From Nitrospirota bacterium (lineage in GTDB: Bacteria > Nitrospirota > Nitrospiria > Nitrospirales > Nitrospiraceae), in NCBI GenBank assembly GCA_026387665.1, contig JAPLLG010000008.1, forward strand, positions 124,001 to 188,000: 64,000 nucleotides of DNA. Direction: 5' to 3'. A program made the translations under genes and the position numbers. Positions 7,110 to 59,898 of this stretch are shown piece by piece. Each line of letters starts with the position of its first letter. Position 1 is the first letter of the stretch. The notes under the pieces were generated by a model that made no database searches, had not been told where the DNA came from, and worked only from the letters and a program-made list of their open reading frames with translations.

Positions 7110-7112
7110 GCC

Positions 7113-30290: not shown

Positions 30291-30413
30291 CAGGATGCTG
30301 AAAAAGGCCGCCAGCGGCGTTCTCGCTTCACGAAGAAGCTCAACGTACCACAAGGGTACGCCTCGCCTCTTCGCTCGCTGCGGCCTTGCTGGACGGTCTT
30401 TTTGAGCATCCTG
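30291..30413. repeat. Palindromic intergenic repeat, copy R2 (123 bp)
   Basis: Ends CAGGATGCTGAAAAAG (30291-30306) and its inverse (30398-30413, one mismatch). The right side carries TCGCTGCGGCCTTGCTGGAC, the inverse of the subterminal block of the other copies. The centre has a small GTACC...GGTAC hairpin. It is the same length as copy R3 and lies just upstream of the RqcH-like gene. Confidence 0.85.
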
Positions 30414-37206: not shown

Positions 37207-40200
37207 ATGTTTTTTCACACGCTACGGGTTTGTGTCTCAACCCGCATGCTTAGCGCGATGGCGGCGGTGGCCCTTCTCGGGGCCCCGCTCGCATCCGCTG
37301 AGAATCCCTCACACATAGGGCCGCCAGCATCGCAACACGTTGCGATGAACCACCAGCTGCCTGGCTGGGCGGAAAAGCTCAAAGGCCAGACGATCGTCGA
37401 AGATTCGATGGGCGGCAAGGCCGAGCGTTCCGCGATGGTTGAACAGCAGCATCAGCGGATCATGGACCACATGGCCCAGGATCCTCAGGTGCAGGGCATC
37501 AACACCGGCATGTACAACACCTCTGCTATGATGCACCAGTATGGCGCGGGTGGACAGGACATGCTCCTCGTGTCCGATCCCCGGGTCGAGCCGGTGGCCT
37601 TGACCGGCGGCGGGAAGTGCCCGGCTACGGCCCCGGTGAAGCAGTACAATGTGTCCGCGATCAACGTCGAGATCACGCTGAACCAGTGGCTCGATTTTTA
37701 TCCCGGCTACATGTATGTGCTGGACGAGAACCTGGATAAGGTGCGCACGGAAGAAGCGACGAACAAGGCCGCGCGCGACAAGGAAGGCTTCGATCCCGGA
37801 GCCATCATCCCAGGCGTGCAGGCTCAGTGGATTCAGCCCTTGACGATCCGCGCTAATCAGGGCGATTGCGTCAAGATCAAACTCTCCAATAAGTTGGAAG
37901 AGGGCAGCGGCTCGGTCAGCTTGCATATCCATGGGTCGAGCATGGTCGTGAGCGCCACCGGCGCAGCGGCCACGACGACCAATACCGATTCCATCGTCGA
38001 AGAAAAGAAGAGCGGCGAGTTCGAGTGGTACATCCACCCGAACACCCAGGAAGGCGTCCGCCAGTTCCATACTTACAGCCAGGATCGTGAGCTGACGGTG
38101 ATGGGCATGTTCGGATCCTTCATCGTCGAACCCCGCGGTTCGTCCTATTGGGAAGCCCTCGGCAGCGGCGCAGTGACTCCGGCCTCCAGCGGCTGGCAGG
38201 TCATGATCAAGAACGGCACCGGTCCTGACTTCCGTGAATTCGTGCTCTACTACCACGAAGTCGGCGACGAAGCGTTCCGTCCGTTGAACAAAAAGGGCGA
38301 CTTCCTTCCGCAGCGCGATCCCCTGACCGATGCCTACCGTCCCGGTGGCCGCGCGATCAACTATCGCAGCGAGCCGTTCGGCATCAACAACATGCATGTG
38401 CAGCACGAGTACTTCGGCTTCGAAGACGAGTCGATGGGCTACAGCTCCTATACGTTCGGCGATCCGTCGCCGACGATTCCCCGGTCCTACATCGGTGACC
38501 CGGCCAAGTTCCGCCTGGTCCACGGTGGATCGGAAGTCTTCCACTCGCACCATCCCCATGGTGGCACCATCCGGTGGCCGCGCAGCCCGCGGGCGATCGA
38601 CGACATGAACCTCTGGGCGACAGCCGTGAACGGTCCGGTCAAGTATCCCGTGATTCGCGCCAAGACGGACCGGGTTGACGTCGAAGTGATCGGGCCTTCA
38701 GAAGCCCTCGATCTGGAGACGGAGTGCGGTTCCGGTCTCTGTCAGCAATTGGCCGGCGATTTCCTCTTCCATTGCCACGTCGCGCACCATTATGTGGCGG
38801 GCATGTGGGGCTACTGGCGCGTGTACAACACGATCCAGCAGGGCGACCTCCGGAACGACGTGATGCCGGACCTTCAGGAATTGCCGGACCGCAAGGGCCG
38901 GATCAAGACCCCGGTGTCGTCGGACAAGCTGGTTGGCCAGACGGTCGATTGGTTCGGAAAGCAGTTCACGATCACTGACAAGGGCAAGAGCAACTGGACC
39001 ACCAACCCTGCGACCATCACGGTCAAGGATTGGGTCGCGATGCAGATGCCCACCATGGGCAAGCCTGGCCACAAGGATGACGAGAAGGGCCAGACCATTT
39101 CGTATGACGCGACCGTGTTGGATTGGGCCTGGGACGGCAATCGTGCGTTGAGCGAGCGCGAGAGCACGATCGACAATCCCAAGTACAAGTCCACGCATCC
39201 GGGCAAGCGCCATCCGATCATGTTCGAGGCGATGACGGGCAAAGTGGCCTGGCCGCACCTGACGCCGCATTTCGGCCGCCGGGTGATGTTCTCCCCGAAC
39301 CACGTCGGCGCGCCTTGGTTGGAGATGATCCGCCGGGACGCGAACGGCGAGGAGAGCACCGATCAGGCGAAGCCCGGTGAGAACGGCGTCTGGAGCCTCT
39401 GTCCCGAGAATGCGGGACGGAAGAGCTACAACGTCCACTTCATCAAGCTGCCGATCAAGATCGCCAAGGCTCAGGGCAAGGAGCCGGCGGTGGTCGATCC
39501 GAACGGATTGATCTACGTGCTCCATGAAGAAGAAGCGGCGATCCGGGCCAATGACGATTTGAAGTATCCGTTGGTCGTCCGCGGCAACATCTACGATTGC
39601 CTGGATTGGACCCTGACGAGCGAGTGGGACGACGACGACTACACGAACTTCCAGTCGTCGAAGATCAATACCCACTGGCATTTCCTCCAGTTCGACAACC
39701 AAGCGTCTGACGGCGTGATCACCGGTTTCTCCTATGAGCAGTCGGTGCGTCCGTTCACGATGTTGGAGAAGAAGAACACGAAGGGGCTGCCGGTCCCGAT
39801 GAACACGGTCATGACCGCATCGGTGAAAAAGGGCGCCACCTCGATTTCGGTGAAGAATGCCCGTCAGTACCACGTCGGGACGCTGATCCTCGTCGGCGCC
39901 GACAATGTGAAGGGCAACGAAGTCTCACGGATCAAGGCGATCAGCGGTAACACGATCACCTTATCCGGTGGTTTGAAACACGATCACCCGGCGAACGATA
40001 TCGTCACGGTGGAGTTCGTGCGTCAGCGGTTCTGGGTCGATGCGGACGTGGGCACCGTGTTCTGGCACGACCATGCGTTCGGTGCGACCACCTGGCCGCA
40101 CGGCGGGTTCGGCACCTTCATCGCCGAGCCGGTTGGCTCGACCTACCATGATCCGAAGACCGGGAAGATGATCCGGAGCGGTCCGATCGCGGACATCCGT

Positions 40201-42072
40201 ACCGTCGAGCCGGTGGGCCATGGCGTGAACAACAGCTTCCGTGAATTGATGGTGCAGTTGCACGACACCGTGCCGCACACCGTCAACATCGTGACCGCGG
40301 GCAATCCTCCTGGGCAGCCGATTGAAGTGGCGCTCGAAGCGGGGAAGACCGTGTCCTTCATGATGCCGGATAAGCTCTATATGACGCCGATGCCCTTCCT
40401 GAACGGTGGGACCCATACCACGGGAAGCGGTTTGAATTTCCGGGCGGCACCGATCGCGCAGCGGTTGGCGACCAACCCGGATGTGTCGCAGGCCTTCAAC
40501 AGCCAGATCCATGGTGATCCCTACACGCCGCTCTTGAGGGCGTATGTCGGCGACACGATGGTGTTCCGGCTGTTGCATACCTTGATGAACGAGACGATGA
40601 CCTGGACCCTGTCCGGCCATACGTTCTTGAGCGAGCGTTATGCAGGCGATGCGAACCGGAAGAGTTCGATGCACGTCGGCATTGCCGAGCGCTATGACCT
40701 CGTGGTGCCGCAAGCCGGCGGACCCCGGTTGCAAGCGGGTGACTACATCCACTTCAACGGCCGTTCCTCGAAGTTCTCCGAGGGTGGCTGGGGCATCATC
40801 CGCGTGTACGACAAGGATCAGGCCGACTTGAAGAAGTTGCCGGCCGGGTTCTCCATCAAGGGCGAAATCCCCAAGGCCTTGCCGGTCTGTCCGGCTGACG
40901 CCCCGGTGAAGAGTTTCAACGTGGTGGCCATGGATTATCCGTCGATGAAGTTCAACGCGAAGGCGCCGGACTCCATCGAAGTGGACTTCGAGCGGAAGAT
41001 TCAGATCAGCAACCCCGAGGCCAAGATCTACGCCTTGGAAGACGATGCCGCGAAGGTGGCGAGCGGTGCGCAACCGATGCCGCTCACGCTCCGCGTGAAC
41101 GTCGGCGATTGCGTCAAAGTGCATCTGAAGAACAAGATGAAGGAGAGCAAGGCGTCCTTCTCGGCCATCGGATTGGCTTTCGATCCGAAGGATTCGATGG
41201 GCATGAACGTCGGCAACAACCCGGGCGATCAGACGATCGTCCCTGGCGCCGAGCGGACCTACACCTATTACGCGGATCCGTTCAACGGGGAAACGACGTC
41301 GTTGGTGTGGGACTGGGGCAACGTGATGGTCAACCCGCGCAACGGGTTGTTCGGAGCGGTGGTCGTCGGTCCGAAGGGATCCAAGTACCGGGATGCCAGG
41401 ACTGGCGCCGATATCAGCAACAAGAACGCCTGGGCCGCCGATGTGATCATCGATCGCTCGGTGCCGGGGAACGAGATGCGTCCGAACTATCGCGACGTGG
41501 CCTTGTTCTTCCAGGACGAAGACAACATCATCGGCACGAGTTTCATGCCGTATGTGCAGAATGTCGCGGGCTTGACCGGCGTCAACTACCGGTCGGAACC
41601 GTATAAGTATCGTGAGGAGCAGGGTTGCTCGCTGGGCAAGATGTTCCAGCCTTGCAAAGCGGACAAGCCTGAAGACCCGTCCACTCCGCTCATCGAAGCG
41701 CATGCCGGCGATCCGGTGCGCATCCATGTGATCGGAGCGAGCAATGAGCAGAACGGCATGTTCAGCGTCGAGAAACATGAGTGGCCGATCGAGCCCTTCA
41801 TGCGCGGCGCGGACATGATCAGCGTAGTCGAGTTCTCCGGTTCGGAGACCCTCGATGCCTTCCTGCCTTCGGCCGGCGGTCCTTACCGTTTGCCGGGCGA
41901 CTATGTGTACAGCAACCAGCGGTTGCCGTACTCCCAGTCCGGGCAGTGGGGCTATGTGCGGGTGCTGCCATCCGGCGATACTCGCCTGCTGCCGTTGCAT
42001 GGAGCGGGCGCCGGGATGAAGAGCGCATCGGTTCAGCAACCGATGCAGATCATCCCAGTCTCAGCGAAGTAA
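37207..42072 (+). CDS. Giant periplasmic multicopper protein (1621 residues)
   Basis: A secreted protein with signal peptide to about residue 31 and a Met/His-rich stretch (residues ~47-115). Several cupredoxin domains follow. The first unit has HIHG (240-243), FHTY (His288), HSHHPHGG (446-453) and the full type 1/type 3 motif H522-C-H-x3-H-x4-M533, the laccase-type signature. A second unit has HWHF (823-826) and FWHDHAFG (953-959) but no HCH motif is evident. A third cupredoxin-like region ends near residue 1600. Laccases are usually ~500 residues. ATG 37207 follows AAGGAGG, and a terminator closes the gene. Substrate unknown; copper or nitrogen-oxide chemistry are candidates by inference. 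Confidence 0.85.
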   Translation: MFFHTLRVCVSTRMLSAMAAVALLGAPLASAENPSHIGPPASQHVAMNHQLPGWAEKLKGQTIVEDSMGGKAERSAMVEQQHQRIMDHMAQDPQVQGINTGMYNTSAMMHQYGAGGQDMLLVSDPRVEPVALTGGGKCPATAPVKQYNVSAINVEITLNQWLDFYPGYMYVLDENLDKVRTEEATNKAARDKEGFDPGAIIPGVQAQWIQPLTIRANQGDCVKIKLSNKLEEGSGSVSLHIHGSSMVVSATGAAATTTNTDSIVEEKKSGEFEWYIHPNTQEGVRQFHTYSQDRELTVMGMFGSFIVEPRGSSYWEALGSGAVTPASSGWQVMIKNGTGPDFREFVLYYHEVGDEAFRPLNKKGDFLPQRDPLTDAYRPGGRAINYRSEPFGINNMHVQHEYFGFEDESMGYSSYTFGDPSPTIPRSYIGDPAKFRLVHGGSEVFHSHHPHGGTIRWPRSPRAIDDMNLWATAVNGPVKYPVIRAKTDRVDVEVIGPSEALDLETECGSGLCQQLAGDFLFHCHVAHHYVAGMWGYWRVYNTIQQGDLRNDVMPDLQELPDRKGRIKTPVSSDKLVGQTVDWFGKQFTITDKGKSNWTTNPATITVKDWVAMQMPTMGKPGHKDDEKGQTISYDATVLDWAWDGNRALSERESTIDNPKYKSTHPGKRHPIMFEAMTGKVAWPHLTPHFGRRVMFSPNHVGAPWLEMIRRDANGEESTDQAKPGENGVWSLCPENAGRKSYNVHFIKLPIKIAKAQGKEPAVVDPNGLIYVLHEEEAAIRANDDLKYPLVVRGNIYDCLDWTLTSEWDDDDYTNFQSSKINTHWHFLQFDNQASDGVITGFSYEQSVRPFTMLEKKNTKGLPVPMNTVMTASVKKGATSISVKNARQYHVGTLILVGADNVKGNEVSRIKAISGNTITLSGGLKHDHPANDIVTVEFVRQRFWVDADVGTVFWHDHAFGATTWPHGGFGTFIAEPVGSTYHDPKTGKMIRSGPIADIRTVEPVGHGVNNSFRELMVQLHDTVPHTVNIVTAGNPPGQPIEVALEAGKTVSFMMPDKLYMTPMPFLNGGTHTTGSGLNFRAAPIAQRLATNPDVSQAFNSQIHGDPYTPLLRAYVGDTMVFRLLHTLMNETMTWTLSGHTFLSERYAGDANRKSSMHVGIAERYDLVVPQAGGPRLQAGDYIHFNGRSSKFSEGGWGIIRVYDKDQADLKKLPAGFSIKGEIPKALPVCPADAPVKSFNVVAMDYPSMKFNAKAPDSIEVDFERKIQISNPEAKIYALEDDAAKVASGAQPMPLTLRVNVGDCVKVHLKNKMKESKASFSAIGLAFDPKDSMGMNVGNNPGDQTIVPGAERTYTYYADPFNGETTSLVWDWGNVMVNPRNGLFGAVVVGPKGSKYRDARTGADISNKNAWAADVIIDRSVPGNEMRPNYRDVALFFQDEDNIIGTSFMPYVQNVAGLTGVNYRSEPYKYREEQGCSLGKMFQPCKADKPEDPSTPLIEAHAGDPVRIHVIGASNEQNGMFSVEKHEWPIEPFMRGADMISVVEFSGSETLDAFLPSAGGPYRLPGDYVYSNQRLPYSQSGQWGYVRVLPSGDTRLLPLHGAGAGMKSASVQQPMQIIPVSAK

Positions 42073-42114
42073 GATCGACCGTCCTGCCGATCGCAGGAGG
42101 TGACGAATCAGGGG

Positions 42115-42143
42115 AAGGGGGAGGCTACGGCCTCCCCCTTTTT
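42115..42143 (+). terminator. Rho-independent terminator after the multicopper gene
   Basis: An 11-bp stem (42115-42125 with 42130-42140) with a 4-nt loop followed by T residues and a second T run. It starts 43 bp after the stop codon. Confidence 0.9.
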
Positions 42144-42199
42144 CTTTTGTGGCGCCCTTTGGTACGATGCCGGCATTCTTCACGCTGGAGGAGGGTCTC

Positions 42200-43129
42200 G
42201 TGAGCCAGTCTATGATTCGAGCAGCTTGTCATGGCGCGGCGATTCTTTTTTGCCTCCTGTCCCTGGAGACCGTCGCCTGGTCCTACGATGTGATCGACGT
42301 GCCGCATGGAGGGACGATTGAAGGCACGATCCGTCTTGATGGCGCAGTCCCGGAGCCGAAGGGGTTCAACCTCATTACCTTTCCCGACCCGGCCTATTGT
42401 GGGCGAATCTCGAACGGTCGAGGCTGGCGGCTGCTCCATGATTTTGTGGTTGGACCCCAACATGAACTGAAGGACGCGATTGTTTTTCTGGAAGGGGTCG
42501 AAGCCGGCAAGCCCTTCGAGCTGTCCGTTCCCCTGATCGAAGCCAGAGATTGCCAGTTCGCGCCCTTCATGACCATCGTGCGGAACGGCCATGCGGTGGA
42601 AGTGATCAACATGGATCCGGTGATGCACGATATCCAAGGCTATGAGACCTCGCTGGAAGCAGGGGCGCGGACGTTGTTCAATACGCCCCTTGTGATGAAT
42701 CAGCAGCACCATCGCGGCGATCTTCATGCGCTGCACAGCCATGCGCCTGGCAAGTCGTTGGTCGGGCCGATGTATTTGAATCGAGGGCGGCGGACCTTCT
42801 ATATGCAATGCGGTTTCCATGCCTATATGGAAAGTTGGGCGATGGCGGTGAATAGTCCCTACTATGCGCTGACCGATTCGAACGGCAAGTTTGCGATCGA
42901 GCAGATCCCGCCCGGCACCTATCAGCTGGTGGTCTGGCATCCTCAGACCGGACCTGGCGTCACCAAGATGGTCACGATCCAGCCGGATGGCAAACTGGTC
43001 GAGCAACTTTCCCTCCTCGCTCCGAAGGGGAACCGTTCTGCCTTCAAAGTGATGGACAATCCCCGTTTCGGCCCTGACACACTGGGCTACTCAGTCGATA
43101 TCCAGCCACTCGTCGAGCATCAGCATTGA
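42200..43129 (+). CDS. Secreted cupredoxin-like protein with carboxypeptidase-regulatory fold
   Basis: A 309-residue secreted protein. GTG 42200 is chosen because GGAGGAGGG precedes it; an ATG at 42149 would place the signal peptide too far in. After the signal (CHGAAILFCLLSLETVAWS), residues 25-130 hold a beta-rich segment with GGTIEGTIRLDG. A copper site is suggested by His143 (VMHDIQGYE) and C204-x2-H207-x2-M210 (CGFHAYM), the cupredoxin ligand pattern. A carboxypeptidase-regulatory repeat (SNGKFAIEQIPPGTYQLVVWHP) follows. It sits between the giant multicopper gene and the repeat R4, suggesting a copper electron carrier. Confidence 0.75.
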   Translation: MSQSMIRAACHGAAILFCLLSLETVAWSYDVIDVPHGGTIEGTIRLDGAVPEPKGFNLITFPDPAYCGRISNGRGWRLLHDFVVGPQHELKDAIVFLEGVEAGKPFELSVPLIEARDCQFAPFMTIVRNGHAVEVINMDPVMHDIQGYETSLEAGARTLFNTPLVMNQQHHRGDLHALHSHAPGKSLVGPMYLNRGRRTFYMQCGFHAYMESWAMAVNSPYYALTDSNGKFAIEQIPPGTYQLVVWHPQTGPGVTKMVTIQPDGKLVEQLSLLAPKGNRSAFKVMDNPRFGPDTLGYSVDIQPLVEHQH

Positions 43130-43297
43130 CAGGATGCTGAAAAAGGGAGCGGGGGTGGGTGGGATGATCCCTGTGCTCGCGCAACGCGCGGTCGCAGACG
43201 CCCCTCGTTGGACGCGCGCAGTTGGGATCATCCCACTCACCCCTAAGTGAGCGGTCGACCGCTGCGGCCTTGCTGGACGGACATTTTGAGCATCCTG
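43130..43297. repeat. Palindromic repeat R4 with embedded hairpin core (copy B)
   Basis: Ends CAGGATGCTGAAAAAG (43130-43145) and inverse at 43282-43297 (TTTTGAGCATCCTG). The right side has the CTGCGGCCTTGCTGGACGG block of the family. The left subterminal block is replaced by a long hairpin whose core (43172-43222 region) matches the core of copy A at 24829-24918. The arms are different bases from copy A but again pair with each other (around 43157-43171 and 43223-43240). Confidence 0.8.
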
Positions 43298-43374
43298 TGA
43301 GATTTTTATCTTGTGCTACATATGCGGCGTAGAGAAGCTCTCGCATGGCCACAGAGTTTTCCACAGTGTGCTAA

Positions 43375-44022
43375 ATGTTCATGTTTATTAGACTAGAGGG
43401 TAAGGCTTGGAGGTGGGGGTTCTGTCTCTGGCTTGTCCTGTGGGGCTGCCAAGCGATCCTGCCTTGGTCTGCGGCGGCTGACGATGTCGTTATCCCTTCG
43501 GTTGAGTTCTCCGGTTTGCTGATCAAGACCGTCAAGGGGAAGCACTATCAGGCGCAAGTCTTTGCGAAGGGGGATCGGTTACGGCTGGAATATAAGTATG
43601 CCATTCGGACCGAACGGGGTTATGCGGCCATCGAAATCATCCGGCTGGATAAATTGGAGACCTGGTATCTGCTGGCGCAGCAAAAAGAACTATTGGTGAC
43701 GGGGCTGGACTCTGATGATTTGCTGCCGGTTAGCCCGACATTGCCGGGAGAGCGGGAGCGGATTCTGGTCGGTGATGCAAGGGCGGCCGGTCGTGCGGCC
43801 CAGTTGTTCGAGGTTCAGACAGACTACCAGGGCAGGGTCGAGCGGTTTTATGAATGGGTGGATCTGGAGACAGGCGTGGTCTTGAAGCTCGTCAGCCGGG
43901 ATCGGGAGTGGTCGTTTGCGTATGAACGGTTTAGACTGTCGCCTCAGCCTGCCTACTATTTTGACGAGCCACCAGGATATAAGAAACGTATAACGGCGAC
44001 TGCGCCGAGAGGACGGGGGTAG
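43375..44022 (+). CDS. Uncharacterised secreted protein, possible LolA-like fold
   Basis: A 215-residue protein with an N-terminal hydrophobic segment (WGFCLWLVLWGCQAILPWSAAA) that could be a signal or a lipobox-like site at LWGC. The remainder is beta-rich (IKTVKGKHYQAQVFAKGDRLRLEYKY, IIRLDKLETWYLLAQQKELL, GRVERFYEWVDLETGVVLKLVSR), with the amphipathic strand order of LolA/outer-membrane lipoprotein-sorting families. No strong ribosome site at ATG 43375, so the start is uncertain. It is 7 bp upstream of the HEAT-repeat gene. No family assigned. Confidence 0.65.
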   Translation: MFMFIRLEGKAWRWGFCLWLVLWGCQAILPWSAAADDVVIPSVEFSGLLIKTVKGKHYQAQVFAKGDRLRLEYKYAIRTERGYAAIEIIRLDKLETWYLLAQQKELLVTGLDSDDLLPVSPTLPGERERILVGDARAAGRAAQLFEVQTDYQGRVERFYEWVDLETGVVLKLVSRDREWSFAYERFRLSPQPAYYFDEPPGYKKRITATAPRGRG

Positions 44023-44029
44023 AGAGACG

Positions 44030-45403
44030 ATGGGTGATGTGATGAGGTGCAGGCGTTCGTGCCGGGTGAATCTGCTTGCCGCAGTGGCGGTGGCCTGCGT
44101 TTCTCTTTGGAGTGGAACGGGCTATGCCGGAACGGCATCTGTGCCCAAGGCGGCGCAAGAGGCCTTCGAGAAGAAAGACTATGCCCAGGCGCTGGAGCAG
44201 TTGGCCAAGTTGGAGAAGGACCAGGCCGCCGCTCCGGACGTGCGCCGTCTCAAGATCCGCTCGTTCCTCAAGCTCGGGAATCCCAAAGATGCGCTCGGTG
44301 AGTACGACAAGCTGGAACTCGCGCTGAAACAAGACGACTTGCCTCTTCTGCGAGAGGTGGCGATGGGATTCATCGTCGTCATGGTGAAGGACATGCGCGA
44401 TCAAATGCGCGGAGCGGCCTATACCGCGCTGAAAGAGGTGGATTCGGACGAGACGATTCCCTATTTCGAGGATGGCTTGAGCGACGGGTCCGGGCCGGTC
44501 CGGGTGCTCGCGGTCGAGGGGCTCGGTCGATCCGAGGCCGGTCGGAAATCGATGAAACTGCGCGGGGCCATCGAGGATCAAGCAGGGTTAGTCAAAGCGC
44601 GGGTCGTGAAGGCGCTTGGCAAAACGGGAGACCTTAGCGTGCTGCCGATCGTTGAGGCGGCAACGAAAGACGAGTTGAGCACGGTTCGTATTGCGGCCTA
44701 TAGCGCCTTGATCCGGCTTGGCAAGAAAGAGGCCTGGACGCAATTGCAGCAGGCAGCAGAGTCGCTGAATCCGGAGGATCGAGCCGATGCCATTCGCACG
44801 ATCGTCGACCTGAACGACCAGCGAGGCGTCCCCATCATGATCGAGTCGTTAACCTACAAGCAGCCCTCCGTTCGCGGCGCTGCCGCTCGCGGGCTTGGGC
44901 ATCTCGGACGAAAAGAGGTGCGGGGACAAATCGAGCAGCTCCTGAAAGATCCGATTCCCGGCGTGCGCGAATCGGCGATCGGGAGCTTGGCGGATATGGG
45001 GGGGACGGAATCGGTACCGGCCATCACCAGGTCGCTCGGCGACGGCAGTTTTACGGTCCGCGCCTCGGCAATTGCCGCCTTGCTTCAGCTGGGCCAACCC
45101 TATCGGACTGTGGCGCCCACTGCACAAGCGCTGGCTCAGCAGAACGATACGGCGATGCGGGCGTCCGTCGCCTATGCCCTGGGGAAGGCGACCAAGCCCA
45201 ACGTGTCCGATGCCATCGCCCTGCTGACCAGTTTGACGGCTGATCCGCTTCCCGGTCCCAAGATTGTGGCTATTCGTTCCCTTGGTCATGTGGGGGACCG
45301 TGAGCTGGTTCCCCTCATGAAGGAAGCCCTGCACGACACGAACGATGCCGTGCGGGCCACCGCTGCAGGGGCCCTCTTGCACCTGCTGCAACTGAAGAAA
45401 TAG
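44030..45403 (+). CDS. Secreted HEAT-repeat protein
   Basis: A 457-residue protein. Start ATG 44030 (or 44042) leads to a signal peptide (CRVNLLAAVAVACVSLWSGTGYA). The N-terminal ~100 residues look like TPR units (AAQEAFEKKDYAQALEQLAKL, LKIRSFLKLGNPKDALGEYDKL). About nine HEAT/PBS-lyase repeats follow (IPYFEDGLSDGSGPVRVLAVEGLG, SVRGAAARGLGHLGRKEVRGQ, PGVRESAIGSLADMG). Such solenoids are protein-binding scaffolds. It ends 224 bp before a promoter for the next cupredoxin gene. A periplasmic scaffold for the copper proteins on either side is possible. Confidence 0.85.
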   Translation: MGDVMRCRRSCRVNLLAAVAVACVSLWSGTGYAGTASVPKAAQEAFEKKDYAQALEQLAKLEKDQAAAPDVRRLKIRSFLKLGNPKDALGEYDKLELALKQDDLPLLREVAMGFIVVMVKDMRDQMRGAAYTALKEVDSDETIPYFEDGLSDGSGPVRVLAVEGLGRSEAGRKSMKLRGAIEDQAGLVKARVVKALGKTGDLSVLPIVEAATKDELSTVRIAAYSALIRLGKKEAWTQLQQAAESLNPEDRADAIRTIVDLNDQRGVPIMIESLTYKQPSVRGAAARGLGHLGRKEVRGQIEQLLKDPIPGVRESAIGSLADMGGTESVPAITRSLGDGSFTVRASAIAALLQLGQPYRTVAPTAQALAQQNDTAMRASVAYALGKATKPNVSDAIALLTSLTADPLPGPKIVAIRSLGHVGDRELVPLMKEALHDTNDAVRATAAGALLHLLQLKK

Positions 45404-45439
45404 GCAATTGGCGTACGATTGGCGCCCCCTTGTTTCGGA

Positions 45440-45469
45440 TTGACAGGGTGGGGTAGAGTTTTGTATACA
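45440..45469 (+). promoter_or_regulatory. Sigma-70-type promoter for the second cupredoxin gene
   Basis: TTGACA at 45440-45445, 18 bp, TATACA at 45464-45469. An inverted repeat ACTCGT/ACGAGT (45471-45476 and 45483-45488) with a 6-bp gap lies at the expected start site and could be an operator or a 5' mRNA hairpin. The gene begins at 45628 after AAGGAGG, leaving a ~150-nt leader. Confidence 0.65.
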
Positions 45470-45627
45470 GACTCGTTCTGAGACGAGTCCTGCTTACGCG
45501 AACTGCAATTGAGATCGAGTCACCAGGGTGGAATACGTTCCCGGTTCCCCTCATGGTTGGTGGTAGACGATAAGGGGACGAGAGTATTAATTCAGCGGTT
45601 AGTTGTTCATCACAAGGAGGCAGTCAT

Positions 45628-46422
45628 ATGAAGAGTGCGTTGTCAGTCATATTGGGCGTGGCAGCCGTCGCGTTTGTCGCGGCGCCTTTCACTGCGTTTG
45701 CAGGCGGCAGCATTTCCGGCAAGGTGACCTTTGCTGGAAAGTCTGAGCAGAAGGAGTTTTCCTTCGCGAAGTTCCCGAACCCGAAGTTTTGCGTGAAGAA
45801 CCCCAACAAGGCCTTGATGGATGGCGACAAGCGCTTCTTCAAGACCATTGAAGTCAGCAAGGATGGCGGCCTCAAGGGCGCGGTCGTGGCCGTGGTCGAT
45901 CTGGAAGACAAGGCTTTTGTTGATGCCTATACGGGTACCGAAGTCGTGGCGGAGTTCTGCGAGTTCCTTCCGTTCACCGGTGTGGTCGTGAACAACAAGT
46001 CCTTCAAGGTTGAGAACCATGACGCCGATGCCGATGACCCAAAGTCGGTCCAGGGCGTGCTGCACAATCCGCATAGCTTCGTGGTGAAGGGCTCCAGCTC
46101 GGCCACCGGTTTCAACATCGGTTTGGCCAAGAAGGGCGACAAGCTCGACAAGCCAGTGGTGTTCCGTGGCGGCGCAGAGAAGGATGGCTTCTATCGTTTA
46201 CAGTGTGACCAGCATGAGTTCATGCAGGGCTTCTACCTGCCGGTATCGAATGCCTACTTCGCCGTGGCGAAGGAAGATGGCTCGTTCGAGATCAAGGGCG
46301 TGCCAGCCGGCAAGCACAAAGTTGTGGCCTGGCATCCGTTTGCAGCCAAGGGCAAGAAGGTTGAATTTGACGTGGATGTGACCGAAGGCGGGCCGGCCAC
46401 GCTCAAGGCTGAAATTAAGTAA
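45628..46422 (+). CDS. Secreted cupredoxin-like protein (second copy)
   Basis: A 264-residue exported protein with signal peptide MKSALSVILGVAAVAFVAAPFTAFAG. It resembles the protein at 42200 in layout: a GGSISGKVTFAG start, then a beta domain, then copper ligands His146/His149 (LHNPHSF) and C193-x2-H196-x2-M199 (CDQHEFM). A carboxypeptidase-regulatory repeat (EDGSFEIKGVPAGKHKVVAWHPFAAKG) ends it. Codon use and a strong promoter and ribosome site suggest high expression. It may be the mobile copper carrier of the cluster; the reaction is not known. Confidence 0.78.
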   Translation: MKSALSVILGVAAVAFVAAPFTAFAGGSISGKVTFAGKSEQKEFSFAKFPNPKFCVKNPNKALMDGDKRFFKTIEVSKDGGLKGAVVAVVDLEDKAFVDAYTGTEVVAEFCEFLPFTGVVVNNKSFKVENHDADADDPKSVQGVLHNPHSFVVKGSSSATGFNIGLAKKGDKLDKPVVFRGGAEKDGFYRLQCDQHEFMQGFYLPVSNAYFAVAKEDGSFEIKGVPAGKHKVVAWHPFAAKGKKVEFDVDVTEGGPATLKAEIK

Positions 46423-46456: not shown

Positions 46457-46493
46457 CGAGGGGCAGCGGAGTAATCCGCTGCCCCTCGTGTTT
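46457..46493 (+). terminator. Rho-independent terminator after the second cupredoxin gene
   Basis: A perfect 14-bp stem (46457-46470 with 46475-46488), GTAA loop, then a T-rich tail. It starts 35 bp after the stop codon. Confidence 0.9.
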
Positions 46494-50022: not shown

Positions 50023-51894
50023 ATGGGTATGAAGAAGAGAACATACGGAGTTGTGTGGGTTTCTCTCCTCCTGTTGGTGGTGTTGGCCGCCGCGTGGATT
50101 GGCTGGGGCCTTCAGGGCCCGGCTTTTGCTGAGGAGAGCACCGACCTCTATTTCAAGACGCCTGGAACTCCCCAGGGGCCTCCCGCCCCTTCTCCGCAAG
50201 AGACCGTCTATTCGCGCATCGGGTCGTTCGACAGCCGATTGCTCGTCTGGTTCGTCACGCAGCAACATACCTACTTCGGTGGGTTCGTCCTTGCGCTGCC
50301 AATTTTCTGTGTCCTGCTGGAGTTCCTGGGGTTGAGCAGCAGAAAGCCGTCGCTGGCCCTTCGCTATGATGGCCTCGCGCGGGATTTAGCCAAAGTGGCG
50401 CTGCTTGCCCTGTCTGTGACCGCGGTGGTCGGGAGCCTCATGCTGGGGATGTTTATCTGGTTCTATCCCAGCTTCATGAAGTATATGGGCGGGACGTTCA
50501 AGTCCTTTATGCCGCTGTATGCGATCGTGTTTGTCGGGGAATCGCTGCTGCTCATCCTCTATTACTACAGCTGGAACCGGTTGGCTGAGCCATCGTTGAA
50601 GTGGGTGCATGCCTCGATCGGCGTGTTGAGCAATCTGTTCGGGGCGGCCCTGCTGTTCCTGGCGAATTCCTGGTCTGCCTTCATGATGGCGCCGGCCGGC
50701 GTCGATGCGCAGGGGCGGTTTCTGGGGAACGGATGGCATTTGCTCCATTCGGCCCTCTGGAATCCGTTGAATGTCCATCGATTCCTGGCCGATATCATGT
50801 CCGGCGGCGCGGTGGTCCTGGCCTATGCCTGCTATCGTTTCTTTACGAGTAAGACGGACGAAGAGCGCGCCTATTTCGATTGGGTAGGGTACGTCTTTTT
50901 GTTTGTCACGGTCTGTGCGCTTTTGCCGATGCCCTTTGCCGGCTATTGGTTGATGCGGTCGGTCTATGCCTTCAGCCAGAGCATGGGTGTGACGATGATG
51001 GGCGGATTGCTTACCTGGCTCTTCGTGGTGCAGGCCCTCTTGATCGGTGCCTTGTTTCTCGGGGTGAACTATTATCTCTGGCAGAGCATGGCGCGCCTTC
51101 GCGGAGGGGAACGGTATCAGCCTTACTATCAGTCGTTGCTGGCGGTGCTGATGTTGGCCCTGTTCATTTGGCTGACGCCGCATACCGTCATGATGTCGGG
51201 CAGTGAAGTGAAGGCGATGGGCGGTTCGTCGCATCCTGTGGTCGGCAACTACGGCGTGATGTCTGCCAAGAATGGCGCGGTCAATATCTTGATTCTCGTG
51301 ACCACCCTGAGTTTCATCTACTACCGACGCGCCAATCGCACGATGGTCGTATCCTGGGTCAGGAAAGGGAACTTCCTCATCGGGGCGCTGTTCCTGCTCG
51401 GTTCCATTAATATTATTTACCTCTCGGTCTATGGATTCTATTTGCCGGCGAAGCTCCGCGTCGGACTGTCGTCCCCGCAGGCTGTGACGACGTTGACGGT
51501 GCTGGTGGTCGGGCTGGTGATCAATCGTATGATGCTCAAGGGGGCGCTCGTCCATGGACCGGTCCAATGGGGGAAGATTTCGGTCAGGGGCATGGTGGGC
51601 CTCTTCGGATTGGCTGCGGCCTTCTCGTGGGTCATGGGTCTCATGGGCTATATTCGTTCCTCCGGACGGTTGGCATGGCATGTGAGTGAGGTGATGGCCG
51701 ATGTGTCGCCCTGGGCCTTTACGCCGGACTTTGCCTTTGCAGCGAAGATGGTGACGCTCAACATGGTGGTGTTCTGGGGGGCGGTCTTTGCGCTTTTCTG
51801 GATGTGCCAGCGCGATCAGTTGCCGGTGATGGGGGAAGAGTTGGCCGAGGGGGCTGCGCCGGTCCTAGCTCCGTCATCGTCGCAAGAGGCCTGA
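50023..51894 (+). CDS. Cytochrome bd-like oxidase subunit I (first copy)
   Basis: A 623-residue membrane protein with an N-terminal helix and ~14 more. CydA-like motifs: QQHTYFGGFVLALPIF, then ANSWSAFMMAPAGVDAQGR, then WHLLHSALWNPLNVHRFLA, and TPHTVMMSGSEVKAMGGSSHP. These correspond to the haem-binding His and the ANGWMQxPxG region of CydA, with extra His. It is ~100 residues longer than CydA and lacks the usual Q-loop. It starts 3 bp after the preceding membrane protein. Published Nitrospira genome work proposed a bd-like protein as terminal oxidase. This copy lacks a His found in the other copy (FMPLYA against FRPVMH). Confidence 0.85.
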   Translation: MGMKKRTYGVVWVSLLLLVVLAAAWIGWGLQGPAFAEESTDLYFKTPGTPQGPPAPSPQETVYSRIGSFDSRLLVWFVTQQHTYFGGFVLALPIFCVLLEFLGLSSRKPSLALRYDGLARDLAKVALLALSVTAVVGSLMLGMFIWFYPSFMKYMGGTFKSFMPLYAIVFVGESLLLILYYYSWNRLAEPSLKWVHASIGVLSNLFGAALLFLANSWSAFMMAPAGVDAQGRFLGNGWHLLHSALWNPLNVHRFLADIMSGGAVVLAYACYRFFTSKTDEERAYFDWVGYVFLFVTVCALLPMPFAGYWLMRSVYAFSQSMGVTMMGGLLTWLFVVQALLIGALFLGVNYYLWQSMARLRGGERYQPYYQSLLAVLMLALFIWLTPHTVMMSGSEVKAMGGSSHPVVGNYGVMSAKNGAVNILILVTTLSFIYYRRANRTMVVSWVRKGNFLIGALFLLGSINIIYLSVYGFYLPAKLRVGLSSPQAVTTLTVLVVGLVINRMMLKGALVHGPVQWGKISVRGMVGLFGLAAAFSWVMGLMGYIRSSGRLAWHVSEVMADVSPWAFTPDFAFAAKMVTLNMVVFWGAVFALFWMCQRDQLPVMGEELAEGAAPVLAPSSSQEA

Positions 51895-51913
51895 ACAGCG
51901 AAAGGGTTGGAGT

Positions 51914-52570
51914 ATGAATCGAGGGGTGATGATCCAGAGATATCTCGCAGTCTGGCTGGTGCTCTGTGGAAGTTTCATGATGCAGGGCGCGGTCTCGGCG
52001 CAAAACCAATCCTTGGTCTTGGAGGATTTCCAGGCGAAAGAAACGGACGGGTTCCCCTCGAATTGGGACCATGAGAATCAACGAAGCCATTCCAAGGGGC
52101 GTGATGCCTATAAGATTCAGACTGAAAACGGCGTGAGTTTTCTGGCGGCGAAGGATGCGGGGCAGCGGATCAAGAAAAAGAAGATCGATTGGGACCCGAA
52201 GGCCTTTCCTGTCCTCACCTGGCGCTGGCGGTTGAATAAGGCCGCGGCGGGAACGGAGCCGATCGCGGCGATCTATGCCTCGCTGGATACGGATTTGATG
52301 TTCATCCCCGTCTTCACGAAGTATATCTGGAGCGCCACCAAGCCTGAGGGGGTACTGAGCGAGGGGGGCATGTTTAGCGGCGCGGAGATCGTAGTCCAGA
52401 GCGGCACCAAGGATGTCGGGCAATGGATTGAAGAGCGGGTCAACGTCTATGAAGACTTCAAGCGGATTCACAAGCATGAGCCGGCTGCCAAGGCTTGGGG
52501 TATTTCGATTATTGCCGGGCCTGGCGTCGAAATCGATTTCGGTTCGCTGGTGGCTAGCGCAGGGCACTAG
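51914..52570 (+). CDS. DUF3047-type periplasmic protein
   Basis: A 218-residue exported protein. The signal peptide is [40 protein letters not shown] and the region [19 protein letters not shown], then [11 protein letters not shown], match the DUF3047 pattern (beta-sandwich with a conserved WxW). [34 protein letters not shown] is also family-like. Start ATG 51914 follows GAAAGGG. It lies between the bd-like subunit and a small membrane protein and belongs to the cluster by spacing. Its reaction is unknown. Confidence 0.78.
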
Positions 52571-52590
52571 AGCATTGGAGTGTAGTTAGC

Positions 52591-52989
52591 ATGGCCGAAT
52601 CCGGTACGGAGCAAGATTGGTCGATGAAAGTGCCCGATATCCTGTTCGGCGTGGCCGTGATGGGAACCGTCGGGACGCTGATCGGGGTCATCATGGGCGG
52701 CGGCATCCTGCCGGTTGCGAGCGGGGCAGGGCTCCTGCTTGGCGGGGTCATCGGCTTTATGGGTGGACGACGTTTTCTAGCGAGTATTTTGGTGGGCACA
52801 GTGCTGGGCGGACTGTTGGCCTGGTTCATTGCCGGGCCGGAGCGAATATCCGTGGGCGCCGGGGCCGGCGCTGCTATGGGCGGATTTCTCGGGGTGCAGA
52901 TTTCGATGTTGCTGGATATGCGCGCGGCCAAGAAGGCCGCATCTGAGTCGGCGGATTCCTCCGTGTCACGCACAATTGAAGGAGCCTGA
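52591..52989 (+). CDS. Small multi-helix membrane protein
   Basis: A 132-residue protein with three or four Gly-rich hydrophobic segments ([55 protein letters not shown] and [13 protein letters not shown]) and a charged tail ([18 protein letters not shown]). The Gly-zipper style resembles small membrane proteins with unknown function. ATG 52591 follows GGAG. It sits 21 bp after the DUF3047 gene and 6 bp before the SUMF1-type gene, so it is part of the same transcript. No known family recognised. Confidence 0.7.
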
Positions 52990-52995
52990 GACGCG

Positions 52996-53922
52996 ATGGA
53001 AAATAAGAAGGTCCTCATCGGCTCGATCATTTTTGTCTTTGCGTCGTTCTTCCTGCTGATCGGCTTGCTGGTCAATGAGTCGTACAAGGCGAAGAAGATG
53101 AAAGAATTGGTCCTCTCGATCAAGACCGAGGCTCGTTCTGCGCCGAGCAGCGTCCCGTCGCAGGATTACTCCATGTATAAAACGAAGATCGGCGACGAGG
53201 GCCGCGAGATGGTGCAGATCCCTGAAGGGCCCTTCATCATGGGCAGCAAGGATGGGGACCCGGACGAAGCGCCGGAGCGGCAAGTGTTTCTCAAGGCCTT
53301 CTACCTCGACAAGAAAGAGGTCTCGCAAGAGGAATATGCCCGGTTTGCCAAAATGACGAAGCGGCCGCTGCCCAAGATCGAAGTGTTTGAAGACGATCAA
53401 TCCAAGCTGCTAAAGCCGGAGTTTGCGGCGATGAGCGTCACCTGGGACGAGGCGGGGGCCTATTGCAAGTGGGCGGGCAAGCGCCTTCCCACGGAAGCAG
53501 AATGGGAAAAGGCCGGCCGCGGCGAGGGGAAGAGGAGGTATGCCTGGGGCGATACCTTTATCAGCGGCCGCGCCAATGCCAATGTGGACGGAAGTGAAGA
53601 TGGGTATCGGTATCTCGCGCCTCCCGGATCGTTCGAGTCCGGGCGAAGTCCCTATGGCATCTATGACATGACCGGGAATGTCGCGGAATGGGTTGCGGAT
53701 TCGTATGACGAGCACTACTACCAGAAAGCGCCCTACCGTGATCCGAAGGGGGCTGAGGCTGCAGAGGATTTGAAGGTCGTGCGGGGAGGGTCCTGGCGGG
53801 AGACCGAGCATAATGCGCGGCTCTCCAAGCGATTCGCCGCGAAACATTGGCGGGCGGACATTACGATCGGGTTCCGTTGTGCCAGCGATATGGAGGTTGG
53901 AGACAGCCCCGCGGCGCCATAA
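52996..53922 (+). CDS. SUMF1-fold (FGE-sulfatase-like) membrane-anchored protein 1
   Basis: A 308-residue protein. One N-terminal helix (VLIGSIIFVFASFFLLIGLLV) anchors a SUMF1/formylglycine-generating-enzyme-type domain. The fold is recognised from MVQIPEGPFIMGSKDGDPDEAPERQVFLKAFYLDKKEVSQEEYARF, the AYCKWAGKRLPTEAEWEKAGRG motif, and GIYDMTGNVAEWVADSY...VVRGGSWRETEHNARLSKR...IGFRCASD. The catalytic Cys pair of FGE is absent (GGSWRETEHNARL), so it is not a sulfatase-activating enzyme. PvdO/NirV-like non-catalytic relatives also use this fold. It lies in the oxidase cluster. Confidence 0.85.
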   Translation: MENKKVLIGSIIFVFASFFLLIGLLVNESYKAKKMKELVLSIKTEARSAPSSVPSQDYSMYKTKIGDEGREMVQIPEGPFIMGSKDGDPDEAPERQVFLKAFYLDKKEVSQEEYARFAKMTKRPLPKIEVFEDDQSKLLKPEFAAMSVTWDEAGAYCKWAGKRLPTEAEWEKAGRGEGKRRYAWGDTFISGRANANVDGSEDGYRYLAPPGSFESGRSPYGIYDMTGNVAEWVADSYDEHYYQKAPYRDPKGAEAAEDLKVVRGGSWRETEHNARLSKRFAAKHWRADITIGFRCASDMEVGDSPAAP

Positions 53923-53927
53923 CAGAC

Positions 53928-54806
53928 ATGCTCGAAACTAAATTCAAGGTCCTGTTTCTTCTTGCCGTCCTCGCCTTTGCTGCGCTCCCTATTATGGGGA
54001 TCATCCGCGGCACCACCTTGACGCCGTTTGAAGATTCTCCAAACGACTCTACAGATGTGGCTCCGTTGGAGCCGGCCGATCCTGCTCAGGTTGCTCGCGA
54101 AGAGCCGGTCCAGGAAGAACTGGTTTCGATCCCGGCTGGCCCCTTTATCCGTGGGACCGATCATGACGGATTTGATGAACGGCCGCAGCGCATGTTGCTG
54201 CTCGATGCCTTTGCGATCGATCGGTATGAAGTGACCAACTTTCAGTATCAGCAATTTGTGGAGGCGACCGGCCATCGTAAGTCCGGCCCCCCCTCCCGCT
54301 ACGCCAAGAACATGAGCAAGATGCGCAGCCTCAATCAGCCCGTGGTCTATGTGTCATGGGAAGATGCGGAGGCCTATTGCCAGTGGAAGGGACGGCGGCT
54401 TCCCACTGAGGCGGAATGGGAGAAGGCGATGCGAGGGACGGATGGCCGTCTCTGGCCCTGGGGTGACGTGGAGCAGCCCAATGGAGCGAATTGGGCCAGG
54501 GTGCAGGACGGCCATGAGGTTGCCGCCGCTGTCGGCGCCGTCCTGACCGATAAGAGCCCCTACGGCGTCATGGATGGAGCAGGCAATGTGATGGAGTGGG
54601 TGGCCGACTGGTACGCGGAAAGTTATTTCGCTGAGGCTTCCGAACAAAATCCTCAGGGGCCTGATTCCGGTACCTATCGGGTGCTCCGAGGAGGGGGCTA
54701 TGCGACAACGGGAGCCGATATTCGCATCACCAGTCGGAGTAAAATGGTTCCCGACTTCCGCGATGAAACGATCGGGTTTCGTTGCGCGGTTTCGGGGGCA
54801 AAATGA
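53928..54806 (+). CDS. SUMF1-fold membrane-anchored protein 2
   Basis: A 292-residue paralogue of the preceding gene. ATG 53928 begins with an anchor (MLETKFKVLFLLAVLAFAALPIMG); the longer frame from 53847 overlaps the previous gene and is rejected. SUMF1 motifs: LVSIPAGPFIRGTDHDGFDERPQRM, AIDRYEVTNFQYQQF, AYCQWKGRRLPTEAEWEKAMRG, MDGAGNVMEWVADWY and VLRGGGYATTGADIRITSRSK. Again the catalytic Cys residues are missing. The pair probably arose by duplication and presumably binds rather than modifies a partner in the oxidase cluster. Confidence 0.84.
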   Translation: MLETKFKVLFLLAVLAFAALPIMGIIRGTTLTPFEDSPNDSTDVAPLEPADPAQVAREEPVQEELVSIPAGPFIRGTDHDGFDERPQRMLLLDAFAIDRYEVTNFQYQQFVEATGHRKSGPPSRYAKNMSKMRSLNQPVVYVSWEDAEAYCQWKGRRLPTEAEWEKAMRGTDGRLWPWGDVEQPNGANWARVQDGHEVAAAVGAVLTDKSPYGVMDGAGNVMEWVADWYAESYFAEASEQNPQGPDSGTYRVLRGGGYATTGADIRITSRSKMVPDFRDETIGFRCAVSGAK

Positions 54807-54838
54807 GAGAGAATTTGAAGAGGGAAACCCCGATAAAT

Positions 54839-54943
54839 CTACAAGAAATCAAAGTAGTAGAGAATGAGAAACACGGCCAAAATTATATTGACAACCATTC
54901 CGGCCAAAACTATAATGTCGAACACTTTTGAGTTCTTAATCAT
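54839..54943 (-). CDS. Putative 34-residue membrane peptide, antisense
   Basis: Read leftwards, a small frame starts at ATG 54943 after AGGGGA at ~7 bp. It encodes a Lys-rich start and one long hydrophobic helix (IIVLAGMVVNIILAVFLILYY). It is too short for a sure call, and the stretch is AT-rich, so chance is possible. It is the only reversed element in the oxidase cluster, ahead of two small forward membrane genes. Could be an independent small subunit or a regulator. Confidence 0.4.
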   Translation of the reverse strand: MIKNSKVFDIIVLAGMVVNIILAVFLILYYFDFL

Positions 54944-55068
54944 CGATTTTCCCCTGATTTTTCGTGAACGGCAAAGAATTTTGAATAACATTACGGGCGT
55001 CTGTGTGTCAAGAAATTCGCTGATACGACCCAGGTAGTTATTTTCCCCCATCAGGAGAAGGAGATACG

Positions 55069-55191
55069 ATGGCAACGGCAACGGTGGATAGCGAGTTTAA
55101 GGTCAAAGTCGGTCGAATGATTTTCTACATCACTTGTGCGGTTGGGCTGTGGTTTTTCTATTGGTTCGCAGGAATTCAGTGCCCCTGCTAA
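55069..55191 (+). CDS. Small 40-residue membrane protein 1
   Basis: A 40-residue protein (MATATVDSEFKVKVGRMIFY... then one helix, IFYITCAVGLWFFYWFAGI) ending in QCPC. Start ATG 55069 follows GAAGGAG. It has one transmembrane helix with aromatic residues and a C-terminal Cys pair CPC. Its size and position resemble small accessory subunits of terminal oxidases such as CydX or CcoQ. It is 264 bp downstream of the second SUMF1-type gene and 63 bp ahead of another small gene. It is too short to be found by standard length cut-offs. Confidence 0.7.
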   Translation: MATATVDSEFKVKVGRMIFYITCAVGLWFFYWFAGIQCPC

Positions 55192-55253
55192 GTGCGGGCC
55201 GCTGTCTTGCTGTGATTTTTTGAACGTCTGCAAGTTGTGAGGGAGGGCGTCTG

Positions 55254-55376
55254 ATGGGCCAGACAATTGTGTATGTGATCGTGTCGCTGGTGATTTGCGT
55301 TGCCTATTTCACAGCGGTTGACCATTTCTTGATGGATTCGCAGGGACTGGACTTCTGGTATCTGTTCCGGAAGTAG
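55254..55376 (+). CDS. Small 40-residue membrane protein 2
   Basis: A 40-residue protein with one helix (TIVYVIVSLVICVAYFTAV) and a polar tail ending in LDFWYLFRK. ATG 55254 follows GAGGGAGG. The aromatic, positively charged C terminus suggests that end lies in the cytoplasm or at the interface. Located directly ahead of the second bd-like oxidase gene, with the same length as the neighbouring small protein. Probably a small structural subunit of the oxidase; not provable from sequence. Confidence 0.7.
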   Translation: MGQTIVYVIVSLVICVAYFTAVDHFLMDSQGLDFWYLFRK

Positions 55377-55457
55377 GCCTTGGGGGTCGTTCTGCGTTGA
55401 GTTGAGTTTGCAGGGATCGCGATGAGTCTTTTTCGGAATGCATTAAGGAGGTATCCC

Positions 55458-57371: not shown

Positions 57372-57453
57372 TCATCGTTAGGATCTTGGTTGGGGGGAGA
57401 GGGGGCGCGGTGTGCGTGCCTTCCTCCTACCCGAACCTCAGGAGGATAAAACC

Positions 57454-58767
57454 GTGGGCGATCTGATAAATGAAGCGATCTCAATAGGGTGGCCGCTGCT
57501 CGCGCTTCTCGCGAGTCTCTTCGTGTATTCCCTGGTAACTATCAGCGATCCCGCTGCAAAGAAACGCGCGACGTTCAAGCTCTTTATTGGCATGATTGGC
57601 GCGTTCATGTTGTTGTTGGCAATCGCGCACTACAAGACGAGCTTTTACGACGCGAACCGGATGTTGCCGGTTTCGCTGGTGCTCATCACCGCCATGTGTT
57701 TCATGATGGGAATTTATTTCCCTAACCAGGCTGCGTTGCTGAAGATCGGTGGCTTCATGTTCTTTGTCGCCGCTGGCCTGTCAGGATATGGGAATTGGCT
57801 GCCGCAGGTTGAAGGCGGCTTTCCCCCCAAAGAAGAAAAGATTCAGTTTGAGTCGATGACGGCGCAGCAGCTGGCCGACGAAGGCGAAAAGATCATCTTC
57901 GGCGGCATCGGGCAAAACAAGGTGCAGGGCGCAATCGGAAAAGGGCAGTGTCCGCTCTGCCACGCGTTCCACAAGGGTATGTTGGGCGAGCGCGCCCCAA
58001 ACCTTGACGGCCTTCCTGAGCGTGCGGGCAAAGAGCGCTTAGAGGATCCGAAGTACAGCAAGGGCAAGCCGCTGGCCAGAGAATATGCGCAGAAGGAGTC
58101 CTTTCCTGGGGCTGGGACTGCAGAGAATGGCCAGGAGTATATCGCTGAATCCCATTCCTGCCCGAGCTGTTACGTCGTTGCAGGGTATGGCGTCAAGGGC
58201 ACGAACGATAAAGAGAGCCCGATGCCTGCCATCCACAAGCCTCCGATCTCGTTGAGTCTCCCGGAGTTGGCCGCCGTGGACACCTGGTTGTATATCCGCG
58301 AAGGACGCGATGCTCCGACATACGAAGAGATCATCAAGTCGTATGAAAAGTTTGTTCCAGAGGCGGATCGGCCAAAGCAGCAGGACGATAAGGCAGCTGG
58401 GGCACCCAGCGCTTTGATGGCGGACGGCACGGAGCCGGTCGATCAGATTTTTGCAAAGGCCCAGTGCGTAGCCTGCCACACGATCCCCGGCATCCCGGGC
58501 GCGGTCGGCACCATCGGTCCGAAGCTCGAAGAGGGGACGAATGCCCCGCTTCGCATCAAGAGTGCGGACTATAAGGGCGGCGCAAAGACCGTTCCGGACT
58601 ACATCATGGAGTCGATCGTGTCACCGAGCGCCTATGTGGTGAAGCCATTCCCGGATAATACGATGCCGAAGGTGTTCGGGCAGAAGCTCAGCGCCGGGGC
58701 GTTGAAAAAGATCGTCGATTATCTGTCTCAGGTGAAGGCGGGATCGCCGCCGCCGAAGATTTCATAA
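57454..58767 (+). CDS. Membrane-bound dihaem cytochrome c with a degenerate third haem motif
   Basis: A 437-residue protein. GTG 57454 is preferred (AGGAGG 8 bp upstream) over GTG 57412. Three or four N-terminal helices (WPLLALLASLFVYSLV, LFIGMIGAFMLLLAI, MLPVSLVLITAMCFMMGIYF, LLKIGGFMFFVAAGL) precede a periplasmic part with haem motifs CPLCH (166-170) and CVACH (338-342). Between them lies CPSCY (236-240), a haem motif in which His is Tyr (codon TAC, one base from CAC). It follows the bd-like gene closely and probably feeds electrons to it. Confidence 0.85.
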   Translation: MGDLINEAISIGWPLLALLASLFVYSLVTISDPAAKKRATFKLFIGMIGAFMLLLAIAHYKTSFYDANRMLPVSLVLITAMCFMMGIYFPNQAALLKIGGFMFFVAAGLSGYGNWLPQVEGGFPPKEEKIQFESMTAQQLADEGEKIIFGGIGQNKVQGAIGKGQCPLCHAFHKGMLGERAPNLDGLPERAGKERLEDPKYSKGKPLAREYAQKESFPGAGTAENGQEYIAESHSCPSCYVVAGYGVKGTNDKESPMPAIHKPPISLSLPELAAVDTWLYIREGRDAPTYEEIIKSYEKFVPEADRPKQQDDKAAGAPSALMADGTEPVDQIFAKAQCVACHTIPGIPGAVGTIGPKLEEGTNAPLRIKSADYKGGAKTVPDYIMESIVSPSAYVVKPFPDNTMPKVFGQKLSAGALKKIVDYLSQVKAGSPPPKIS

Positions 58768-58810
58768 TCTTGTCTGTCTACCTCTTTTGTTGAGCAAAGG
58801 GAGTTCGCCG

Positions 58811-59848: not shown

Positions 59849-59898
59849 TCGTTCACGGGAATTGACAGCCAACCTGGATTTACGACATGAGGGAAACC

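Follow-up and report, generated by a model that had tools for sequence, protein, structure and literature searches.

A predicted MnxG-type multicopper oxidase and a neighboring secreted cupredoxin in the class Nitrospiria

RESULTS AND DISCUSSION

Within the window analyzed here, a stretch of 64,000 nucleotides from a Nitrospirota genome, lies a gene (37207–42072, + strand) for a periplasmic protein of 1621 residues, the giant, which by family and ligand set is a complete MnxG-type multicopper oxidase. Among the matches listed in a phylum-wide search, the giant occurs in 122 of 122 genomes of the class Nitrospiria, and at most loci a gene for a secreted cupredoxin, CUP1, follows it closely. We propose, with about even confidence, that the giant uses O2 to oxidize a metal in the periplasm, probably Mn(II), and that CUP1 and its paralog CUP2 are its redox partners. 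Both the protein family and the organism group are known ones; what looks new is the class-wide pairing of giant and CUP1, their distribution, and the independence from nitrite oxidation.

Layout of the gene cluster

The ORF list places five consecutive genes on the + strand: the giant; CUP1 (42209–43129); a conserved cluster member encoding a secreted 215-residue protein with at most a weak MucB/RseB-like match (43375–44022); a secreted HEAT-repeat protein (44030–45403); and CUP2 (45628–46422). The initial annotation had listed these genes from the sequence alone, and every ORF was found as it described, the gene that it put at 42200 being CUP1. Judged by eye, all five encoded proteins begin with a signal-peptide-like N terminus. 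HEAT repeats, which had been proposed for the intervening gene, were recovered by Pfam (HEAT_2, 3.5e-43). A PADLOC match of the same protein was dismissed as generic HEAT similarity.

Terminators had been suggested after the first and last genes, and folding is in agreement. The gap between the giant and CUP1 contains an intrinsic terminator at 42110–42145 (+ strand; –30.1 kcal/mol, z –4.8), and another lies after CUP2, at the end of the cluster (46457–46488, + strand; z = –8.2). A stem and T-run, in altered sequence, is also seen 3' of the giant in 34 of 48 orthologs, and this recurrence despite sequence change suggests that the terminator is probably used. The giant is probably a transcript of its own; given the conserved terminator, co-expression of the giant and CUP1 is not required. 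The strong promoters of the initial annotation found no support: the promoter scan returned one promoter-like match compared to 3.7 expected by chance. The high expression proposed there, and the scaffold role proposed for the HEAT protein, are conjectural.

Domains and copper ligands of the giant

The best NCBIfam match of the giant is MnxG (NF041487, 1.7e-41), although its score of 141 bits is far below the curated cut-off of 3100 for this Pseudomonas-type MnxG equivalog. The sole solved structure to match the giant at length is MnxG of Bacillus sp. PL-12 (PDB 9bxa, E = 1.7e-80), and domain-by-domain alignment shows the six cupredoxin-like domains of the two proteins to be collinear. The same structure was the top Foldseek match (19% identity) of an AF2 model of residues 41–1215, built from 26 sequences, which is poor overall (pLDDT 59) and too poor for ligand distances.

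The giant had been described as one laccase-type motif plus degenerate cupredoxin units. The motif itself, HCHVAHHYVAGM, is present at residues 522–533 (motif D; 38770–38805, + strand), where H522 and H524 would bind the trinuclear center and C523, H528 and M533 the type-1 (T1) copper. The rest of that description does not hold, as domain 2 contains the T1 site together with one half of the trinuclear center, and domain 3 contains the other half. Three further catalytic motifs account for this arrangement, all on the + strand. Motif C, HSHHPH (residues 446–451; 38542–38559), supplies H446 for T1 and H449 and H451 for the trinuclear center. The other two contribute trinuclear ligands from domain 3: motif A, HWH (residues 823–825; 39673–39681), aligns with FHIHFVKFD of 9bxa, and motif B, HDH (residues 954–956; 40066–40074), with FFHDHLF. 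All 12 copper ligand positions are identical across a 35-sequence alignment that spans the giant, a Priestia MnxG-like protein, a protein from a Streptomyces plasmid, a haloarchaeal protein and a ∼33%-identical relative (L069). H528 of the giant aligns with the alanine in HCHLYPA of 9bxa, a structure titled as an H340A mutant, and we take H528 to be the expected T1 histidine. Read from these alignments, the giant carries the full four-copper set, T1 plus trinuclear. The Met/His-rich N terminus of the initial annotation is real but mild, with 15 Met and His in residues 31–135 versus at most 13 in any later window of 105 residues.

The giant thus resembles MnxG of Bacillus sp. PL-12/SG-1 (the MnxEFG complex, 9bxa) in the order of its six cupredoxin-like domains, in the division of the copper sites between domains 2 and 3, and in all ligands, one of which is mutated (H340A) in 9bxa. 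It differs in length (1621 versus about 1220 residues), with additional stretches that follow domain 2 and interrupt domain 3. Its locus also differs from that of MnxEFG in having a plastocyanin-like partner, and Mn(II) oxidation by the giant is putative. By gene layout, the window has no MnxE/MnxF-like small genes ahead of the giant, the upstream position being taken by a long divergent gene; the Priestia MnxG-like protein has two small genes directly upstream and CopC nearby, a layout like that of mnxEFG. The missing MnxE/F-like neighbors and the low identity speak against classing the giant as an MnxEFG complex; by analogy, its copper core would work like that of MnxG.

The giant is kept at about 60% identity throughout class Nitrospiria. 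Its relationship to MnxG is distant, and hence its substrate may have changed. In an outgroup tree of giant relatives, from which MofA and McoA were left out, branches outside the Nitrospiria clade are long, making the exact position of the giant relative to MnxG unsure.

Two of the relatives deserve mention in their own right. The L069 protein (2981–8134 of that locus; genome G039, family f4) has 1718 residues and keeps 12 of 12 copper ligands but has lost most auxiliary histidines; it represents a subfamily of its own, and its lineage lacks NxrA. On the Streptomyces plasmid NZ_CP108007 (L153, 3308–8626), a 1772-residue ‘hypothetical protein’ adjoining CopC proves to be an MnxG-type oxidase that is not annotated as such; it is 31% identical to the giant over 90% of the query.

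CUP1 and CUP2

The AF2 model of CUP1 is of good confidence (pLDDT 90). In structure comparison with VIA, residues 107–214 match plastocyanin (Z 10.2 over 89 residues, 2.6 Å) and also amicyanin, and for residues 26–271, which surround this cupredoxin insert, the match is to rhamnogalacturonan lyase, in its transthyretin-like domain (Z 10). The model predicts a plastocyanin/amicyanin-like cupredoxin inserted in a transthyretin-like (carboxypeptidase-regulatory-like) domain. Pfam likewise reports CarboxypepD_reg/fn3_3, in line with the carboxypeptidase-regulatory end noted at the outset.

A histidine plus a CxxHxxM set had been proposed as common to both cupredoxins, and this was confirmed. All 57 relatives compared share the CUP1 type-1 ligands H140, C201, H204 and M207, and 98% retain the cysteine pair C64 and C115. 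CUP2 is 25% identical to CUP1 and carries the same set, and by homology it likely has the cupredoxin fold as well. The two proteins share this fold and the H-C-H-M type-1 ligands with plastocyanin and amicyanin, and the C-x2-H-x2-M loop with amicyanin. Identity to these proteins, however, is about 15%, and the placement of the cupredoxin within a transthyretin-like domain sets CUP1 and CUP2 apart.

Distribution and pairing in Nitrospiria

Outside class Nitrospiria, the phylum-wide search gave eight weak matches to the giant and no more, and it is with other classes that the rows lacking a match start. The giant was not found in the genomes of three relatives, which are incomplete or fragmented. 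The best 80 loci of the scan for relatives are nearly all Nitrospiria by title, with one titled Opitutales. Most genomes contain paralogs of the giant, at 67–74% and about 55% identity, and N. moscoviensis has up to four copies. The paralog in the genome studied here, on contig C12, is flanked by FGE-like proteins rather than CUP1.

To score the pairing, we examined 111 giants with their flanks, 91 of which had enough downstream sequence, and counted CUP1 when it lay on the same strand within 2.5 kb. CUP1 follows the giant in 78 of these 91 loci and is absent from the other 13; the 91 take in some near-duplicate genomes and hence are not independent events. By identity to the giant, CUP1 is present beside 39 of 41 orthologs (≥80%), 27 of 36 relatives at 62–80%, and 12 of 14 below 62%. 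The two records of the ≥80% subfamily without CUP1 (L040 and L076) are probably one Baikal genome, which shows that the pairing is not absolute.

The full cluster is mainly a feature of the giant's own subfamily, in which the HEAT protein is present at 32 of 32 orthologous loci and CUP2 at 26 of 32; more distant versions are found in family f3. The initial annotation had envisaged a secreted copper module, and had named scattering of the genes in related genomes as a finding that would speak against it. Instead, the genes stay together in relatives and the ligands are invariant, upholding the module.

Relation to nitrite oxidation

Downstream of the core module, and outside it, are a homolog of cytochrome bd-like oxidase subunit I (50023–51894, + strand; PF01654, 8e-17) and a second bd-like oxidase (55422–57371, + strand; PF01654, 8e-20). 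They belong to a run (50023–61674) that also encodes two c-type cytochrome membrane proteins and an NxrC-like cytochrome c/ethylbenzene-dehydrogenase-domain protein. In both N. defluvii and N. moscoviensis, the ortholog of the giant is likewise found close to the two bd-like oxidases, with gene order kept. FGE-sulfatase (SUMF1-like) proteins are encoded in pairs at 52996–54806 and also directly beside paralogous giants (L021, 12078–13956; L025, L030 and L032). A functional link between the FGE-like proteins and the oxidases is possible.

With NxrA of the same genome (L072) as query, we searched 146 class genomes. In 22 of them no real NxrA was found (17 with no match, 5 with matches of E 4e-6 or weaker), and all 22 carry the giant. 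Many of these giants are full-length copies at 52–63% identity, and the aligned ones among them show invariant ligands. A member of the NXR gene set would occur only with NxrA; the giant does not, and it is therefore not a nitrite-oxidation gene. In the genome studied here, NxrA is also on a different contig from the giant. These data argue strongly against a part in nitrite oxidation in which the giant and the cupredoxins would take electrons from NXR and pass them to the respiratory chain. We regard this as very improbable, despite the bd-like oxidases and NxrC-like cytochrome c near the giant, the distance of 5–6 kb that separates some paralogs from NxrA in genome G032 and N. moscoviensis, and the multicopper oxidase placed in the NXR region in the open-access main text of Luecker et al. 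(PMC3578206). Nitrite oxidation as the general role of the giant is largely refuted. Because copies sit close to NxrA in some genomes, it is still possible that one paralog is active in the nitrite oxidation of nitrite oxidizers.

Proposed function and alternatives

The initial annotation knew of no catalytic reaction for these proteins in combination. That statement overlooks MnxG, for which Mn(II) oxidation is proven, and a 2013 report of the protein itself. In their open-access main text, Luecker et al. (PMC3578206) describe a periplasmic multicopper protein in Nitrospina gracilis and N. defluvii, similar to the manganese oxidase MnxG of SG-1, in an NXR/bd-like oxidase region; they speculate on Mn(III)-based ROS defense, and their NXR cluster includes ‘two cupredoxin-like proteins’. 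The N. defluvii record (FP929003) holds an ortholog of the giant, 88% identical and in the same bd-like oxidase neighborhood. In the parts of that main text covered here, no account was seen of the CUP1/CUP2 pairing as we define it, of the spread through the class or of the independence from NxrA.

In the mechanism we favor, the substrate, most likely Mn(II), would donate single electrons to the T1 copper of domain 2 (H446, C523, H528 and M533). Electrons would then cross the HCH bridge to the trinuclear center, built from H449, H451, H522 and H524 of domain 2 and H823, H825, H954 and H956 of domain 3, where O2 would be reduced to water. The complete trinuclear set suggests O2 as the electron acceptor; transfer from T1 to the trinuclear center and O2 reduction are proposed by analogy with Bacillus MnxEFG, which oxidizes Mn(II) via T1 and trinuclear copper (PMC6247904). 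CUP1, and here also CUP2, would work with the oxidase as plastocyanin-like one-electron carriers, linking it to other redox proteins of the periplasm, for example the bd-like oxidases and c-type cytochromes whose genes lie 8–20 kb downstream. We infer which way the electrons would run. Confidence differs among the parts of this scheme: that CUP1 and CUP2 are electron partners rather than copper-loading proteins seems somewhat more probable than the scheme as a whole, and Mn(II) as substrate falls a little short of an even chance. Rather than nitrite oxidation itself, the likely purpose would be a general aerobic function of the class, e.g. oxidation of Mn(II) or redox protection based on Mn.

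Two alternatives concern substrate and purpose. In one, the giant would be a detoxifying periplasmic oxidase of Fe(II) or, like CueO/CopA, of Cu(I), with CUP1 and CUP2 binding or delivering copper. The Streptomyces and Priestia relatives do adjoin CopC copper-handling genes, but neither a copper exporter nor CopC was seen beside the giant within the window. Similarly, the giant shows a weak match to the copper-resistance multicopper oxidase family TIGR01480 (CopA/PcoA), yet its 27 bits are well below the curated cut-off of 479. The mild enrichment of Met and His at its N terminus fits this alternative. Copper chaperones of the Met/His-only kind are unlike the cysteine-containing type-1 set, an electron-transfer type, that CUP1 and CUP2 carry and that is invariant in 57 of 57 relatives. 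Presence in all class genomes, and in up to four copies in N. moscoviensis, is also unusual for a resistance gene. Overall, we consider copper or iron detoxification unlikely. We give similarly low weight to the published proposal that the oxidase forms Mn(III), which scavenges superoxide and so protects against ROS (PMC3578206, main text). The complete MnxG-type site and the class-wide core distribution are compatible with it, but it depends on the same putative Mn(II) substrate, and it departs from our preferred explanation, a metal oxidase with cupredoxin partners, in purpose rather than chemistry.

Fixed copper ligands and class-wide conservation imply that the giant must serve something important, and the sole role found for it in print is the speculated ROS defense (PMC3578206, main text). 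The separation of the giant from nitrite oxidation and its specific partner make its role testable at the bench, and with it two questions: what Nitrospira uses a manganese-oxidase-like enzyme for, and how electrons from Mn could reach a respiratory chain in Mn-oxidizing relatives. Nitrospirota MAGs recovered from nodule sediments are reported to carry mnxG (PMC10367259), and two ‘novel MCOs’ are common to all Ca. Manganitrophaceae, where Mn lithotrophy through these enzymes would require a periplasmic electron carrier (PMC9040806). The Manganitrophaceae are of the same phylum, and class genomes often have two or more copies of the giant, consistent with these MCOs being the same proteins, a putative identity. 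A CUP1-type partner would be a natural candidate for the carrier. More speculatively, and in our view doubtful to a greater degree than either alternative above, the giant and CUP1 may form a two-part periplasmic system ancestral to Nitrospiria, in which electrons from Mn(II) or another metal pass via the T1 copper and CUP1 to the respiratory chain, conserving energy. If so, the carrier needed by the Manganitrophaceae would be supplied, and nitrite-oxidizing Nitrospira would retain a latent metal-oxidizing electron pathway.

Interspersed repeats

The gap between CUP1 and the next gene contains a 74-bp palindromic repeat (43161–43234) with a second copy at 24837–24910. Its ends read GGGAT/GGGAG...ATCCC/CTCCC, and at least 40 matching places were found in the same genome; it looks to be of the REP/MITE type. 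Another interspersed repeat, of 43 bp, is present near genes at 43255–43297 and 30371–30413, and appears as ‘GCSK..SSKAAA’ in spurious ORFs.
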